This document shows, in pieces, positions 7,479 to 15,087 of a DNA stretch of 28,073 nt. Position numbers and translations under genes: made by a program. The stretch is from a virus. Positions within the stretch are counted from its first letter, which is position 1. Each line of letters opens with the position of its first letter. The notes under the pieces were generated by a model. The model ran no database searches. It had not been told where the DNA came from and saw only the letters and a program-made list of their open reading frames with translations. The stretch lies in IMG/VR virus record IMGVR_UViG_3300022859_000015, positions 1-28,073 of that record. One strand, written 5' to 3'.

Positions 7479-7654
7479 AGAAAACTAATACTGACTCTAA
7501 CTATGAAGAAATGATTAATGCATATCAGCGTCAATTAGATGATGATATAAGGCTTTGGAAAATGATGCAACCCAATATAGTCCAGCACTTGTTAATGGCC
7601 TTAGTTGATAAAATATCAACTTATATTAAAAGACTTATTAAATCAAAGCCATGA
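7472..7654 (+). CDS. hypothetical protein, 60 aa
   Basis: A small Lys/Asp-rich protein with a likely C-terminal amphipathic helix (HLLMALVDKISTYIKRLI). It overlaps the next start by the ATGA quartet. The leader and first codons are nearly identical to those of the following gene, which suggests this gene entered or can be lost by recombination between the two copies. No family recognised. Confidence 0.55.
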   Translation: MKKKTNTDSNYEEMINAYQRQLDDDIRLWKMMQPNIVQHLLMALVDKISTYIKRLIKSKP

Positions 7655-7657
7655 AAA
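7638..7657 (+). repeat. start-codon direct repeat, right copy
   Basis: TTAAATCAAAGCCATGAAAA, one base different from 7459-7478, covers the start codon of the DUF616-like gene at 7651. Confidence 0.7.
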
Positions 7658-8286
7658 CAGCCATATACACAATTGTAACGAACGATTACGATAATGTTCA
7701 GCCAATTGACGCTGCATGCGATTGTTATCTGTTTACTGATGACCCGAAACTAAACGTTAAGGGATGGATAACGGTACACACTAAACTTAATCAAAGGCAT
7801 CTAAAAATCAATCCGTTTATATCTGATATACTTAATAAATATGATCAGACTATTTACATGGATGGTAATTTACAGATGTTAGCGGGTGCATTTTATTCTA
7901 TTTTAAGCCTATTGGACGATGATGACAAGGAATTTATCACCACTAAGCACCCTGAAAGGACTTGTGTATATGAGGAAATAAAGCGGTGTGGGCATCTTGG
8001 AAAGGATGACCTTGATAGGCTAGACACCATTCGCTATCAATTACTAGAGATAGGAGTTGACACGAATACTGGAATGATTGCAGCTGCTTTTTTGGCTCGA
8101 AAGAATACCAAGGATGTTCGATCATTTTGCAAGAATTGGATGATGGCACACATATTATTACAGGGCAAACGAGATCAAATAAGCTATGCATTAGCCCAAC
8201 ACGTTAACCGATTCGAGCCGTATCTATTGCCTTTCATGTACACGTTTCGGGCGTTGTTTGCGTTGGGTGCGCATAAAGGGAAATAA
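7651..8286 (+). CDS. DUF616-type glycosyltransferase-like protein (TOD1/MUCI70-like)
   Basis: A 211-residue protein resembling the DUF616 (TOD1/MUCI70) glycosyltransferase-like family. Residues 1-40 look like a Rossmann-type nucleotide-sugar region (AIYTIVTNDYD, CYLFTDDP). YDQTIYMDGNLQM at 64-76 replaces the DxD of GT-A enzymes with D71-G-N73, as is usual in this family. HPERTCVYEEIKRC at 100-113 and RDQISYA at 174-180 are family-like blocks. It probably transfers or trims a sugar on a surface glycan or virion protein. All ten Arg codons are CGN or AGG, none AGA, in contrast to the gene after it. Confidence 0.72.
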   Translation: MKTAIYTIVTNDYDNVQPIDAACDCYLFTDDPKLNVKGWITVHTKLNQRHLKINPFISDILNKYDQTIYMDGNLQMLAGAFYSILSLLDDDDKEFITTKHPERTCVYEEIKRCGHLGKDDLDRLDTIRYQLLEIGVDTNTGMIAAAFLARKNTKDVRSFCKNWMMAHILLQGKRDQISYALAQHVNRFEPYLLPFMYTFRALFALGAHKGK

Positions 8287-8311: not shown

Positions 8312-8402
8312 CTATGGCTTATATTACGCGTTGTGCGTTTGGTGCGGTTTAATAGATATAAAGTTTGAATTATGGATAAAGGTAGTTTTAATAATTTTTT
8401 GA
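8298..8402 (+). pseudogene. possible N-terminal remnant of a small gene split by an insertion
   Basis: An ATG at 8298, 12 bases after the DUF616-like stop, opens a 34-residue hydrophobic aromatic peptide beginning MSRFFYGLYYALCVWCGL. Base use up to about 8350 resembles the rest of the phage, then turns AT-rich as the reading runs into the foreign-looking gene at 8372. It could be a short membrane peptide in its own right. I infer that it is the 5' part of a gene whose 3' part survives at 9233-9337. Confidence 0.3.
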
Positions 8403-9232
8403 GCGGAAGCAACATCTTGATAAGTTTTTCAGGTGGGAGAACATCTGCTTTTATGGCGAAACTAATATTTGAATTGCCAAAATATAAGAACTTTAAAAAA
8501 TTGGTTGTTTTTGCCAATACAGGAAAAGAAAAAGAAGAAACTTTGAAATTCGTAAACGAATGTGATAAGGCTTTTAATCTTGATGTTGTTTGGATTGAAG
8601 CAGATGTAAATCATAAAAAAGGAAAAGGAACAGATTATAAAGTCGTTTCTTTTGAAACCGCTAAAAGGAATGGAGAACCCTTTGAGGAAGTAATAAAAAA
8701 GTTTGGATTACCTTCTAAATATTACAGGCACTGCACAAGAGAATTAAAAGAAGTGCCTATTCATAAATTTGCTAAATCAATTTTTGAAGGCCAGTATTTA
8801 ACTGCTATTGGAATTAGATCAGATGAAAAAAACCGATTAGGTTTCGATCCTAAAAAAGTTTATCCATTAGCAGAAATGGGAATTGATGAATTAATAGTTA
8901 GAAATTTCTGGGATAGACAAAGTTTTGATTTAGAATTAAAAGATTATGAAGGTAATTGTGATTTATGCTTTTTAAAATCAAAACGCAAAAGATTAACGCT
9001 AATTGATGAGCAACCGAATATTGTTGAGTGGTGGGATAAAATGGAACAGAAATACAGCAATGAAAAACAAAGCAAATTTGATGCAATGAGAAGTTTAACA
9101 ATAGTTGATTTAGTAGAATTGGCAAAAAATCCATTCACAAAAGCAATTGATAAGCACGAATTAAGAAAACAACAAAATTCATTTGATTTTGATATGGACA
9201 TTGAACACGACTGTTTTTGTAAATCGAATTAA
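8372..9232 (+). CDS. PAPS reductase-like ATP-pyrophosphatase family protein
   Basis: A 286-residue protein of the adenine nucleotide alpha-hydrolase (PP-loop) superfamily, closest in pattern to phage PAPS-reductase-like proteins. The PP-loop is SFSGGRTSA at 18-26. Further blocks are VVFANTGKE, YYRHCTRELKEVP, IGIRSDEKNR and CDLCFLKSKRKRL, plus a C-terminal CFC. Several cysteines may bind a metal cluster. Such enzymes activate a substrate by adenylation for sulfur transfer or reduction; the phage substrate is unknown. Eight of 12 Arg codons are AGA (none of ten in the gene before), and the gene is AT-richer than its neighbours, pointing to recent transfer. No dnd-type partner genes are nearby. 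Confidence 0.78.
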   Translation: MDKGSFNNFLSGSNILISFSGGRTSAFMAKLIFELPKYKNFKKLVVFANTGKEKEETLKFVNECDKAFNLDVVWIEADVNHKKGKGTDYKVVSFETAKRNGEPFEEVIKKFGLPSKYYRHCTRELKEVPIHKFAKSIFEGQYLTAIGIRSDEKNRLGFDPKKVYPLAEMGIDELIVRNFWDRQSFDLELKDYEGNCDLCFLKSKRKRLTLIDEQPNIVEWWDKMEQKYSNEKQSKFDAMRSLTIVDLVELAKNPFTKAIDKHELRKQQNSFDFDMDIEHDCFCKSN

Positions 9233-9337
9233 AAAGCGTTGGGAAAAATTATTAAAACAGTGGAAAGAGCTATAAAGTTTATAAATGTGATAACAAAACC
9301 AGACGTTTTCCATCCGCTAAAATCAAAATCAAAATGA
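9233..9337 (+). pseudogene. possible C-terminal remnant of the split small gene
   Basis: Right after the TAA of the PAPS-reductase-like gene, the same frame stays open for 34 codons, ending at TGA 9335-9337, which overlaps the glycosyltransferase ATG (ATGA) as a real upstream gene would. The peptide contains TVERAIKFINVITKPDVF. A GTG at 9260 could start a 25-residue ORF. I infer a truncated gene end rather than an independent gene. Confidence 0.28.
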
Positions 9338-9879
9338 ACATTCACTATTTTACACCATTCAGCATTACAAAGGACATTGGCGGTGCTATAAATAAGCATT
9401 GCGATTTAGTCAAGAATCCTGACGATTGGATTGTCATTCTTGACGGAGACATGATGTTTCTCCAGCCAGATTGGGGCGTTGTAATTCATAATGCATTAGA
9501 AAAGGACGGAGACAAATTTGGCCTAATCGGTTGCTATACAAACAGGCTTAGAGGGTTGCATCAACTCCATAATAACGCAATTTCACACGATCACGACATT
9601 TTGAATCATTACAAAATAGCCGAAGAGTACCAAGGCAAAGAGGGCATAAGCGATTTGAATCTGTTTGGTGTGGCGGGTATCTTCATGGCATTTAAAAAGT
9701 CAACTTATGATAAAGTTGGTGGGTTCAATCAAAATAATATTACAGCAGATACCTATTTTAATTTGAAAGTTCGTAAATTAGGCATGAAAATAGGAATTAT
9801 TAACGGCCTTTACGTCTATCACGCTTATCGGCCGTGGAATAACATTAATCCAGCTGATGACTGGACGCATTTGAAATAA
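9334..9879 (+). CDS. GT-A (GT2-like) glycosyltransferase
   Basis: A 181-residue protein. Its start region (MNIHYFTPFSITKDIGGAIN) is typical of compact GT2-like enzymes that lack a long nucleotide-binding lead. DWIVILDGDMMFL at 31-43 holds the metal-binding DGD (37-39). GVAGIFMAFKKSTYDKVGGF near 112-131 resembles the acceptor/galactosyltransferase C-terminal segment, and HAYRPW is near the C-terminus. It should move a sugar from a nucleotide donor, using a divalent metal. It is short for GT2 but complete over the catalytic core. Together with the methyltransferase and the DUF616 protein it implies a glycan-modifying role. Confidence 0.8.
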   Translation: MNIHYFTPFSITKDIGGAINKHCDLVKNPDDWIVILDGDMMFLQPDWGVVIHNALEKDGDKFGLIGCYTNRLRGLHQLHNNAISHDHDILNHYKIAEEYQGKEGISDLNLFGVAGIFMAFKKSTYDKVGGFNQNNITADTYFNLKVRKLGMKIGIINGLYVYHAYRPWNNINPADDWTHLK

Positions 9880-11710: not shown

Positions 11711-12130
11711 ATGGCACAGGACGGCAAATTTATTATTATCAAGGTTGGGACCACAACCATAAAAGGGCAAATTTCAGGATCAGACGAGGCAACGGTTGAT
11801 ATGCTAGAAACAACTGACAAGTTAACCAAAGATGCGGTTACTGGAATCACTCACAAGACATTTATTGCGGGCGATAGAAATTCAACTTTGACAATCGAAG
11901 GAAACTTTGATCAAGAGGATGATAACTGGGAGACTTTATACGCTCTTTACCGTACGCAAGTAGCCACAGCAGTAGCCTACTTTGGTGGCGTGAAAGCTGG
12001 CGATACTTTTATCGAACAAGCCGCTTGGTTAAGTAACGTTACACGAACGTATGGCCAAAATGCAGTAGCTACCTATTCAGCTTCTTTGCAATTGTCAGGC
12101 GTACCAACTCTTGGAACGGTTCCAACTTAA
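11711..12130 (+). CDS. major tail tube protein
   Basis: A 139-residue beta-rich protein in the TP901-1/lambda-V type tail tube position. It begins MAQDGKFIIIKVGTTTIKGQ, with TVDMLETTDKLTKDA and then SLQLSGVPTLG near the end, patterns common in tube proteins of Bacteroidota siphophages. Stacked hexamers form the tail tube. The leader is A-rich (TAATACAAAAA before ATG). It is followed by the chaperone genes and the tape measure, as expected. Confidence 0.82.
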   Translation: MAQDGKFIIIKVGTTTIKGQISGSDEATVDMLETTDKLTKDAVTGITHKTFIAGDRNSTLTIEGNFDQEDDNWETLYALYRTQVATAVAYFGGVKAGDTFIEQAAWLSNVTRTYGQNAVATYSASLQLSGVPTLGTVPT

Positions 12131-12140
12131 TTAATTTGAT

Positions 12141-12506
12141 ATGATACTAAACATAAACAACCAAAAAGTTGACGTGCAATTTAACACGGGTAAGTTTGTT
12201 GATATTGCAGAATTTAAGAAGCGATATGAGCCTGAGCTTGGTATGACCTTAGATAAATATATGAGGTTGCTTGCATCAGGTGATTACGAATTGAACGCCC
12301 TTTGTGATTTGATTTATTACCCTTACGTAATTGAAAGAAGGGCAAAAGGATTGCCAATTTCTTTAACGATGGGAGATATATTCACGCATTTTATCACAAA
12401 TAAAGAGGTTCTTAATGAACTGAAAGATGAAATGGCCGCAAGTATGCCACAGCCAGAGCAAGACGAAACGGGATCAGCTACAAAAAAAAAGGTGATCAAG
12501 AAGTAA
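12141..12506 (+). CDS. tail assembly chaperone, unshifted form (lambda G-like)
   Basis: A 121-residue protein made when ribosomes stay in frame. It is mainly helical (FVDIAEFKKRYEPELGMTLDKYM, LNALCDLIYYPYVIERRAKG), with a charged tail ending KKKVIKK. In lambda-like phages the G protein coats the tape measure. Near its 3' end a run of nine A includes the slippery heptamer that yields the longer GT form. The start ATG 12141 follows TTAATTTG by two bases, so a near-leaderless promoter is conceivable. Confidence 0.75.
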   Translation: MILNINNQKVDVQFNTGKFVDIAEFKKRYEPELGMTLDKYMRLLASGDYELNALCDLIYYPYVIERRAKGLPISLTMGDIFTHFITNKEVLNELKDEMAASMPQPEQDETGSATKKKVIKK

Positions 12507-12826
12507 GCCTTAGCTATGATAGCTTAATTGAGTTTGCAGGCGAGGCGGGTATTGAACCTTCTCGCCTTCTTACGTTTACTTGGAGGGAGTTTTATCACTA
12601 TGCAAAAGGCCACAGGAGGCAAAAAGCGAAAGAGGAAAACAGTCAAAGAATGATAGCCTACCAAGTGGCTTGCAGCATTCCAAGAGGTCGAAATGATAAG
12701 GCACTGGCAAAGATTTCGCAGTATTGGCCAATACCATTGATTGACGGCGAAAATACTGTATATTTAGACACGGATAATGCAAATGAGTTTTTCAATAAAG
12801 CAATGAAACTATGGCAAGTACAGTAG
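12141..12826 (+). CDS. tail assembly chaperone, -1 frameshift fusion (lambda GT-like)
   Basis: Reading in frame to 12491 (117 codons), slipping back one base at AAAAAAG, then continuing from GGT 12491 without a stop for 111 codons to TAG 12824-12826 gives a 228-residue product. The T-like extension contains LLTFTWREFYHYAKGHRRQ and IPRGRNDKALAKI, and no other gene explains the roughly 300 bases it occupies. The fusion should bridge tail tube subunits to the tape measure during assembly. The tape measure gene starts inside its last codons (12811). Confidence 0.82.
12485..12491 (+). promoter_or_regulatory. programmed -1 ribosomal frameshift site
   Basis: A AAA AAG in the zero frame (12485, 12486-12488, 12489-12491) is one of the most efficient bacterial -1 slippery heptamers. 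It lies within a 9-A run. About 20 bases downstream AGCTA (12512-12516) and TAGCT (12520-12524) can form a small hairpin, and TAAGC (12504-12508) can instead pair with GCTTA (12522-12526). The zero-frame stop is 13 bases after the site. Confidence 0.8.
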
Positions 12827-15087
12827 CTGATTTAGTTGCAAAATTAGGACTAGACAATACCGATTTTATAAGAGGCGTTGACAAGTCTTTGAAGTCCTTC
12901 GAGAAGATGGGTGCTAAAATGCAAAACGTCGGTAAGACTATGACCATTGGCGTCACATTACCATTACTTGCCTTGGGTGTGGCATCCGTTAAGGCAGCGT
13001 CCGATTCTCAAGAAACGTCCTCAAAGTTTAATACGGTATTTCGTGATATCGCCTCACAAGCAGAGGAATCGTTTGGCATACTTCGGAACGAATATGGCCA
13101 AAGTTCCACAGCAGCACGGCAAATGCTATCAGATACGGGAGACCTTTTAACAGGCTTTGGATTTAGTCAAGAGGCAGCGTTAGGACTATCTACACAGGTG
13201 GGTAAATTAGCGGTTGATTTAGCCTCATTCACTAACTTTTCGGGCGGCGCAAAGGGTGCAGCCGACGCATTAACTAAAGCCTTGTTAGGTGAAAGGGAAA
13301 GTGTGAAAGCATTAGGAATTTCTATCTTAGAGGAGGATGTTAAAAAGCAAATGGCAATTAACACCGCTAAGGGAATGACTTTTGAAACGGAACGGCAAGC
13401 CAAAGCCCAAGCAACCTTAGATATTGCTTTAAGTCAGTCTACTAATGCGATTGGAGACTATGCCCGAACGTCTGGAGACTTTGCGAATCAGTTTCGTTTA
13501 TTGCAATCACGAACGGAGGATTTAGCCAACGAATTTGGAGCGATTTTATTGCCTATTGCGGCAAAATTAGTGGCGGTTTTACAAAATGCCATCGCCACAT
13601 TAAGTCAATTGAATCCTGAAACAAAACAAACAATATTGATTTTTGCAGGGTTAGCCGCTGCAATCGGCCCCCTTTTAGTAGCGGTTGGATTCTTTGCGAC
13701 CACACTTTTACCCTCCATGATTTCAGGCTTTACCTTATTAATGGGGCCGATTGGAATAGTGATAGCGGGTGCATTAGTTTTAACGGGTGTCATTACTGCC
13801 TTATCAAGGGAATCCAATAAGGCTGAAAGGGCATTGAATGACTTTAAAAAGTCAAACGATGAACTAGCTGCAATGGATAATAAATTGAATCCTTTGATTT
13901 CAAGATATGAGGCTTTGTCTACAAATGTGTTTCGAACAACCGAGGAAAATGAAGAACTAAAAACAGTTATACAAGATATTGGAATAGCCGTACCAACAGC
14001 AGTAACCCAGTTCGATGAATACGGTAAAGCGTTAGATATTAACGTTGGTAAGGTTAGGACGTTTACAGAGGCACAAAGGGAGGCTAACAAGATATTGAAT
14101 GCAGGTGCTATAAAAGAACAAGAGGCAGCCTTAAAACTAGCTGAAATACGAGCTAAGAATTTAAACCAAACATTAGATACTAAGGATAAAGATGGGAACG
14201 TAGTCAGAAAAGTACAAAAATCATCTGGAGGCATTTTGGGCGGAAGCACTAAAACGGAAGATGAAATTATTAAGGGTGAAAGACTTAGGGAAATTCTTGT
14301 ATCATTAGGCAAAACTCAAGCAGAAATTGCAGGACGTAAGGAAATAATTAGAAGTTTAATTGGTGATCCATTAGAGGTTATAAAACCAATTGTTCCATTA
14401 GTTGTAGTGGTAAAGGAAGTAGTCGATGCGGTTAAAAATCTAGTTCCTGAATCTATTAAGGCAACTAAAAGCCTAAAAGATATGTCCGATTTGCAACCGA
14501 CGCTAGCAGCAAATTTAGGTGTGACGGGAATTGCTTTGGATGACATGAAACAGAAGATTGTGATATCGAACGAGCAACTTTCATTCTTTAGCGGGTTATT
14601 AAATTCAGGTCAAGGAGCTTTGGAAGGTCTATTTAGTACGATGCTAAACGGTGGCAATCCTTTTGAATATATTATGGCAATGCTAAAGAGATTGATTGCA
14701 AGATTAGCGGCAGCAGCAGCGGCGGCCTTAATATTAAAACTTTTGTTACCTAGTTTGGGCGGTTTTGGTGCTGATATTTATAAATCAGCAGGAGGAGGTT
14801 CGTTCGATGCTATTTTTAAGATGCTCTTGGGTATCCCAAATGCATTACCGACGGCACGGGCAGCCCGTGGAGGTATGGTAACAGGATTGACGAATGTAAT
14901 AGTAGGAGACAATGCAAGTGGCAAAGAGGCTTTAATTCCATTCGAACGTATGGGAGAATTTCTAGGGAAATACAGCAATAACGGTCAATCGGGAGAGATT
15001 AAATTGAGTGCCGTTATTCGAGGTCAAGATATTTTCTTATCAAATCAAAATTATATTAACTCTCAAAATCGAACCCTTGGCATTTAA
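12811..15087 (+). CDS. tape measure protein
   Basis: A 758-residue protein, long, Ala-rich and helical. Residues 1-60 have the usual opening (VADLVAKLGLDNTDFIRGVDKSLKSF). Hydrophobic segments lie around 275-330 (LIFAGLAAAIGPLLVAVGFF and a Gly/Ile-rich stretch) and around 630-655, which may insert in the host membrane during ejection. The final part is Gly-rich with IVGDNASGKEALIPFE. It sets tail length and helps pass DNA through the envelope; at the usual ~0.15 nm per residue the tail would be roughly 110 nm (estimate). Follows the G/GT chaperones. Confidence 0.92.
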   Translation: MASTVADLVAKLGLDNTDFIRGVDKSLKSFEKMGAKMQNVGKTMTIGVTLPLLALGVASVKAASDSQETSSKFNTVFRDIASQAEESFGILRNEYGQSSTAARQMLSDTGDLLTGFGFSQEAALGLSTQVGKLAVDLASFTNFSGGAKGAADALTKALLGERESVKALGISILEEDVKKQMAINTAKGMTFETERQAKAQATLDIALSQSTNAIGDYARTSGDFANQFRLLQSRTEDLANEFGAILLPIAAKLVAVLQNAIATLSQLNPETKQTILIFAGLAAAIGPLLVAVGFFATTLLPSMISGFTLLMGPIGIVIAGALVLTGVITALSRESNKAERALNDFKKSNDELAAMDNKLNPLISRYEALSTNVFRTTEENEELKTVIQDIGIAVPTAVTQFDEYGKALDINVGKVRTFTEAQREANKILNAGAIKEQEAALKLAEIRAKNLNQTLDTKDKDGNVVRKVQKSSGGILGGSTKTEDEIIKGERLREILVSLGKTQAEIAGRKEIIRSLIGDPLEVIKPIVPLVVVVKEVVDAVKNLVPESIKATKSLKDMSDLQPTLAANLGVTGIALDDMKQKIVISNEQLSFFSGLLNSGQGALEGLFSTMLNGGNPFEYIMAMLKRLIARLAAAAAAALILKLLLPSLGGFGADIYKSAGGGSFDAIFKMLLGIPNALPTARAARGGMVTGLTNVIVGDNASGKEALIPFERMGEFLGKYSNNGQSGEIKLSAVIRGQDIFLSNQNYINSQNRTLGI

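Follow-up and report, generated by a model that had tools for sequence, protein, structure and literature searches.

A run of nine A's at the junction of a putative G/GT tail assembly chaperone pair in a viral genome and its relatives

What lies between the stop codon of a short gene (TAA, 12504-12506) and the start of the tape measure gene downstream, and how would it be expressed? The question arises in a stretch of viral DNA of 28,073 nucleotides, referred to here in its entirety as the window (IMG/VR record IMGVR_UViG_3300022859_000015). The short gene, G (12141..12506, plus strand), has 121 codons and is a candidate short tail assembly chaperone gene. Over its 3' end the -1 frame is free of stops from 12431 to 12823 and closes with TAG at 12824-12826; the two open frames overlap for 73 nt (12431..12503), and the tape measure ATG at 12811 in turn overlaps the end of the -1 frame. 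Inside the first overlap is a run of nine A's (12482..12490, zero-frame codons ACA AAA AAA AAG), the proposed site of frame transition, at which two zero-frame heptamers can be read: A_AAA_AAG (12485..12491), a ribosomal slippery sequence, and A_AAA_AAA (12482-12488). The -1 frame extension, T (12491..12826), comprises 111 codons plus the TAG and, like the other features of the locus, lies on the plus strand.

Every coordinate given by an earlier sequence-only reading of this locus proved correct when checked against the sequence, as did its claim that a gene list built from plain open reading frames misses the T half, since 12431-12823 has no corresponding listed ORF. When plus-strand stop-to-stop stretches of at least 130 codons were matched by hand to the listed ORFs, 26 of the 27 had an ORF beginning no more than 110 bases from their start, the stretch 12431-12823 alone having none. 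A frame stayed open for 111 codons by chance in 9 of 20000 first-order Markov sequences. The A run is the sole run of nine A's or T's in the window. Codon shuffles of 38 chosen ORFs give an expectation of 0.98 A9 runs in the window's genes, with one observed (a Markov expectation of 2.85 per window disregards codons and was set aside), and a single A9 is thus unsurprising by itself. It is the location of the run that counts, and this is noteworthy because relatives carry nine A's at the same junction.

The two-part gene is flanked by genes for the major tail (tube) protein (11711..12130, plus strand; PHROG 1407, major tail protein, E 3.3e-8) and the tape measure protein (12811..15087, plus strand; PHROG 1293, tail length tape measure protein, E 9.8e-18), so that the order is major tail protein, G, T, tape measure protein (MTP-G-T-TMP). 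An ORF at 10893-11288 matches Pfam HK97-gp10, and further upstream are terminase, portal, head morphogenesis, protease and major head genes. Elsewhere in the window, two ORFs match different parts of the glycosyltransferase family PHROG 26101 (407 positions), 7651-8286 the N-terminal part (6-182, E 3.4e-6) and 9334-9879 the C-terminal part (229-395, E 4e-31), with a PAPS-reductase-like gene (8372-9232) between them. They are possibly one split glycosyltransferase gene; the ORF at 9334-9879 scores slightly better against a stand-alone family, PHROG 14179.

Judged from sequence, the locus is very probably a G/GT tail assembly chaperone pair produced by a frame transition at the nine A's. Normal reading would give G (121 aa), while a minority event at the run would move reading into the -1 frame and give a fusion, GT, with a predicted length of 228 aa. 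If the pair works as in lambda, the tape measure protein would be bound by G, and GT would use its T part to recruit the tail tube protein to it. The anatomy of the locus, the homology of the -1 frame, the conserved nine A's and the gene order are observed directly; the production of both proteins, their ratio, their roles, and the level of the transition (ribosome or polymerase) are inferences.

Relatives with the same junction

Viral contigs were scanned with the window tail protein, yielding three lineages beyond the window, which we count as the fourth: L009; L021 together with L022, to which it is identical over 8278 bases; and L023 together with L024 (identical over 4823 bases) and L025 (no mismatch and one 18-base indel). 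Excluded from the counts were L013, L014 and L015, which are tape measure matches, and L026, whose contig ends inside the tail protein. The order MTP-G-T-TMP is kept in L009, L021/L022 and L023/L024/L025, and the window's major tail protein is 53-55% identical to its counterparts in the three relatives. All four metagenomic lineages place T at -1 relative to G, in a frame that stays open across a run of exactly nine A's; T is a shifted frame over the 3' end of G, with the slippery site inside the overlap and no standard start codon of its own. The comparison of the -1 frame with T proteins of related phages that the sequence-only reading had proposed bears out homology, both in the three metagenomic lineages and in Cellulophaga phages. 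Window T is 32-38% identical to the T of the three relatives (E 1.6e-11 to 1.3e-24), and across the four lineages identities are 32-41% for T (E 1.6e-11 to 3.1e-28) and 32-43% for G (for the five of six pairs given). As T is only 32-41% identical, silent sites between the lineages should be saturated.

The in-frame heptamer is A_AAA_AAG in the window, L009 and L021, and A_AAA_AAA in L023, where the run follows MPKPE, closer to the 5' end of G, and is read in a different phase (GAA AAA AAA AGC), its length still nine. Two scans of genome contigs, each with just two short peptide patterns and therefore a weak guide to absence, found no prophage relative. Two further contigs found through the tape measure protein, with gene neighbourhoods that differ from the window's, have an open -1 frame after the gene that precedes the tape measure gene (L011 3711-3977 and L012 1747-2016) and no long A run there; judged from sequence, these perhaps carry chaperone frameshift pairs of their own.

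A tblastn search of 50,697 phage records with window T matched 13 records. Eight of these are Cellulophaga baltica phages (Helsingorvirus; E 2e-4 to 3e-4), with phi12:3 known from match tables alone, and the remaining five (E of at least 4) were treated as chance. Window T is 33% identical to Cellulophaga T (E 5.7e-11 against phi18:1 T by pairwise BLAST), the similarity of Cellulophaga T to L021 T is weak (E 0.003), and by the same pairwise comparison neither L009 T nor L023 T is significantly similar to it (E 0.97 and 5.4). At the G/T junction there are nine A's in phi18:1, phi18:2 and phi12:1 and ten in phi17:1. The junction A9 is the only one on either strand of the phi18:1 and phi18:2 records, while phi12:1 has one extra and phi17:1 two. 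Relative to G, the T frame is +1/-2 where the run is A9 (phi18:1, phi12:1) and -1 where it is A10 (phi17:1). Between phi18:1 and phi17:1, codon changes number four synonymous and no nonsynonymous in the T frame, and none and four in either other frame. Public records present T as a separate hypothetical gene (gp56/gp57 of phi18:1 and their equivalents, L004-L007), starting at an ATG in the overlap in phi18:1, phi18:2 and phi12:1 and at a TTG past the A10 run in phi17:1. On the sequence evidence these genes seem due for re-annotation as a G/GT pair.

Identity of the two products

With E below 0.1 as the limit, neither window G nor window T has a match in Pfam or in the PHROGs. The best PHROG for window T is 16333 (E 0.16), the family of Cellulophaga T. 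Against the phage collection window G gave nothing at E up to 10, L009 T and L021 G gave no match, phi18:1 G matched Cellulophaga phages only, and even the window tail protein gave a single weak match (E 0.1). The six G sequences compared (A5) match no Pfam family, and their sole PHROG is 26725, reached by two of the six and given without a function.

Structure prediction offers more for G. Its AlphaFold model (pLDDT 78) was built from six sequences, Cellulophaga rows included, and a Foldseek search of predicted viral structures placed first a protein named 'Tail assembly chaperone protein' (E 1.9e-3, probability 1.00, TM 0.56, rmsd 7.0, model against model), with no viral match at E of 0.001 or below. 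Second comes a protein of Cellulophaga phi18:2 with 139 residues, as long as that phage's G; as Cellulophaga sequences are in the alignment, this match is not independent. The predicted fold of G thus appears to resemble known tail assembly chaperones, with moderate strength. In the PDB, sequence and fold searches with G returned only weak, unrelated matches (best fold E 2.6; best Z 3.0), as did the sequence search with T. The T model is weak (pLDDT 63), and its sole viral match at E of 0.001 or below is a 110-residue protein of phi18:2, which is the length of the annotated T gene.

L021 T gives a short and weak link to named chaperones. It matches 18 mycobacteriophage records, all annotated as tail assembly chaperone at that place, 16 at E 3e-3 to 4e-3 and two at 0.5, over no more than 36 residues; these phages are closely related, making the matches nearly one observation. 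In Mycobacterium phage Backyardigan (gp23/gp24) the match, 50% over 36 aa at E 3e-3, falls in the second part of a joined CDS annotated 'tail assembly chaperone (G/T -1 frameshift)', and the gene order is that of the window. A second link from L021 T is to PHROG 393 (tail assembly chaperone; E 0.0046). Both links were reached from L021 T only; window T reached neither the mycobacteriophage chaperones nor PHROG 393, and the relation of Backyardigan to the window is distant.

The gene order in lambda, which we take to be tail tube, G, T, tape measure, is that of the window, and the lambda slippery site is presumably G GGA AAG, where the window has a run of nine A's instead. According to PMC5009743, lambda makes a short gpG and a longer gpGT, the latter carrying a -1 frame extension encoded by T, whose sequence overlaps the end of G, much as proposed for the window. 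Unlike lambda, window G and T lack sequence similarity to any named family, and of the 'lambda-like' description in the sequence-only reading it is therefore the arrangement that stands and the sequence that does not. The tail chaperone reading itself is supported by synteny, by the homologous open -1 frame, by the structural match of G and by the match of a relative's T. The Cellulophaga phages share the window's gene order, the homologous T and the long A run (phi18:1, phi12:1 and phi17:1), and differ from it in the T frame that goes with nine A's and in being annotated as two hypothetical genes.

Ribosome or RNA polymerase at the A run

A_AAA_AAG is the known slippery site of dnaX. Our default mechanism is -1 slippage of the ribosome on this heptamer, in which two lysyl-tRNAs would slip at 12485-12491, with the overlapping A_AAA_AAA assisting. 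The serious rival is slippage by RNA polymerase, which the sequence-only reading mentioned as an aside and which merits more weight: a host or phage-modified polymerase would stutter on the nine A's, some mRNA would carry ten, and ordinary translation of these would give GT, whereas mRNAs with eight or eleven would yield a G-like product ending shortly after the run (TGA 12493). If the locus is a G/GT pair, we regard the chance that the ribosome is responsible as about even, and see a considerable, if lesser, chance for polymerase slippage, alone or together with the ribosome.

On the side of the ribosome, the direction is -1 in four of four metagenomic lineages, a constancy that counts against polymerase slippage, and the window's phase of the A9 stacks two in-frame heptamers that a ribosome could use. 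PMC5009743 terms tail chaperone shifts ribosomal, and PMC3711429 gives frameshifting of 6 and 7% for two genes of a tail chaperone cluster assayed with a reporter. A downstream structure or a Shine-Dalgarno (SD)-like stimulator is usual for dnaX-type frameshifting, though not obligatory. The 70-nt fold after the run has -19.1 kcal/mol in the window (z -1.5, 17 of 200 shuffles being as good), and z is +1.3 in L009, +0.6 in L021 and +1.0 in L023. These folds reveal no RNA structure common to the four metagenomic lineages, a point in favour of the polymerase, and ribosomal frameshifting is to that extent more weakly supported than is usual. In phi18:1 and phi17:1 (z -2.6 and -2.1) a hairpin of 7 plus 6 pairs is predicted to begin 17 nt past the A run (L004 3528-3570); it was not seen in the metagenomic lineages.

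An SD-like tetramer is present at 3 of the 32 ATG starts checked in the window, below its frequency at random places (16.5%). Together with the Cellulophaga link, this scarcity suggests a Bacteroidota host, and it also makes an SD-type ribosomal stimulator less likely, which again favours the polymerase. Within 25 nt upstream of the run such a tetramer is absent from the window and L023 and occurs once each in L009, L021 and three Cellulophaga phages.

The length of the run points to the polymerase. A ribosome needs only six A's and a G, yet there are exactly nine A's in all four metagenomic lineages (nine or ten in the Cellulophaga phages), and the L023 run has shifted in place and phase and is nine long nonetheless. 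Codon draws for the last 30 codons of G, with amino acids kept, contained nine or more A's with a probability of 0.345 for the window, 0.119 for L009, 0.420 for L021, 0.069 for L023 and 0.297 for phi18:1; the product of the five, calculated by hand, is about 3.5e-4, and the run is thus retained beyond what the lysines account for, if not overwhelmingly. The different T frames of the A9 and A10 Cellulophaga phages would point the same way, since direction that varies among orthologs is a sign of transcriptional realignment (PMC3711429, section 10), although the A9/A10 difference may itself be a homopolymer error in the records.

Long A runs should be depleted in genes if slippage on them were harmful, and the lack of such depletion counts against the polymerase. 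In the 38 window ORFs there is one run of nine or longer against the 0.98 expected, and in 49 of the 65 phi18:1 genes there are two against 3.18 (one run being counted twice, in overlapping genes); runs of six or more are enriched in phi18:1 genes, at 87 against 59.7 expected. Folds of 45 nt, made without shuffles, gave no evident shared hairpin upstream of the run that might push the polymerase.

A precedent for the polymerase is the cellular dnaX gene of Thermus thermophilus, in which nine A's likewise mark a programmed frame change within coding sequence. There, according to PMC1088944 and PMC5009743 (section 43), transcriptional slippage is about 50% efficient and yields a shorter product, whereas in the window slippage is only a candidate. 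The same section of PMC5009743 describes slippage at nine A's or T's as highly efficient in vivo. A literature search, mostly without subscription papers, gave among the matches listed none that describes a phage tail chaperone made by transcriptional slippage; in the main text of PMC1088944, which treats A9/T9 slippage in bacteria, the word 'phage' is absent, and PMC10299305 touches on transcriptional realignment in passing.

We tentatively suggest, as a possibility that we hold to be somewhat improbable, that the G/GT ratio in these phages, with their presumed Bacteroidota hosts, is set by RNA polymerase stuttering on the nine A's and not by the ribosome. If true, selection would preserve the length of the tract rather than codon phase or RNA structure, and the tract would be free to move. 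Small changes in DNA length would also be tolerated, as the mRNA pool would always hold the length needed.

A start codon for T, and the meaning of the junction

Translation of T as a separate gene from a start of its own, or by re-initiation after G, is a far less probable account. The sequence-only reading had held that its proposal would fall if related phages encoded the downstream segment as a gene with its own start; this is not so in the metagenomic lineages, and the Cellulophaga records do annotate a separate T, from the overlap ATG or, in phi17:1, the TTG after the run. ATGs in the overlap are confined, among the phages compared, to the Cellulophaga phages with A9. Within the overlap, the T frame of the four metagenomic lineages offers no ATG, GTG or TTG before the run, and past the run the first is 53 codons away in the window, within the conserved domain, 47 in L021, and 21 in L009 and 22 in L023, in or at the end of the first helix of the weak T model. 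On that model, a separate T begun at a standard start would lose much or all of the first predicted helix. Non-standard starts are possible, for example ATT 12527.

Least probable is that the true sequence is one fused ORF, split here by a mistake in sequencing or assembly or by decay of the gene: homopolymers are prone to error, but the identical -1 split with nine A's recurs in four separate lineages, with further assemblies repeating three of them, the contig of another IMG/VR record (possibly from the same reads) agrees with the window base for base at the site, and the changes in T between the Cellulophaga phages compared are silent only.

Phages are well known to make G/GT pairs by frameshifting; what is unusual here is the exact run of nine A's kept in distant relatives. 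Recognising the pair restores a gene half that plain ORF calling misses in the window and that public Cellulophaga records list as a separate hypothetical gene. The unusually well kept site makes the level of frameshifting testable, and the junction provides a compact test case of whether RNA polymerase, rather than the ribosome, can set the ratio of two phage proteins; the Cellulophaga baltica phages, of which isolates have been described, are suited to such a test at the RNA level.
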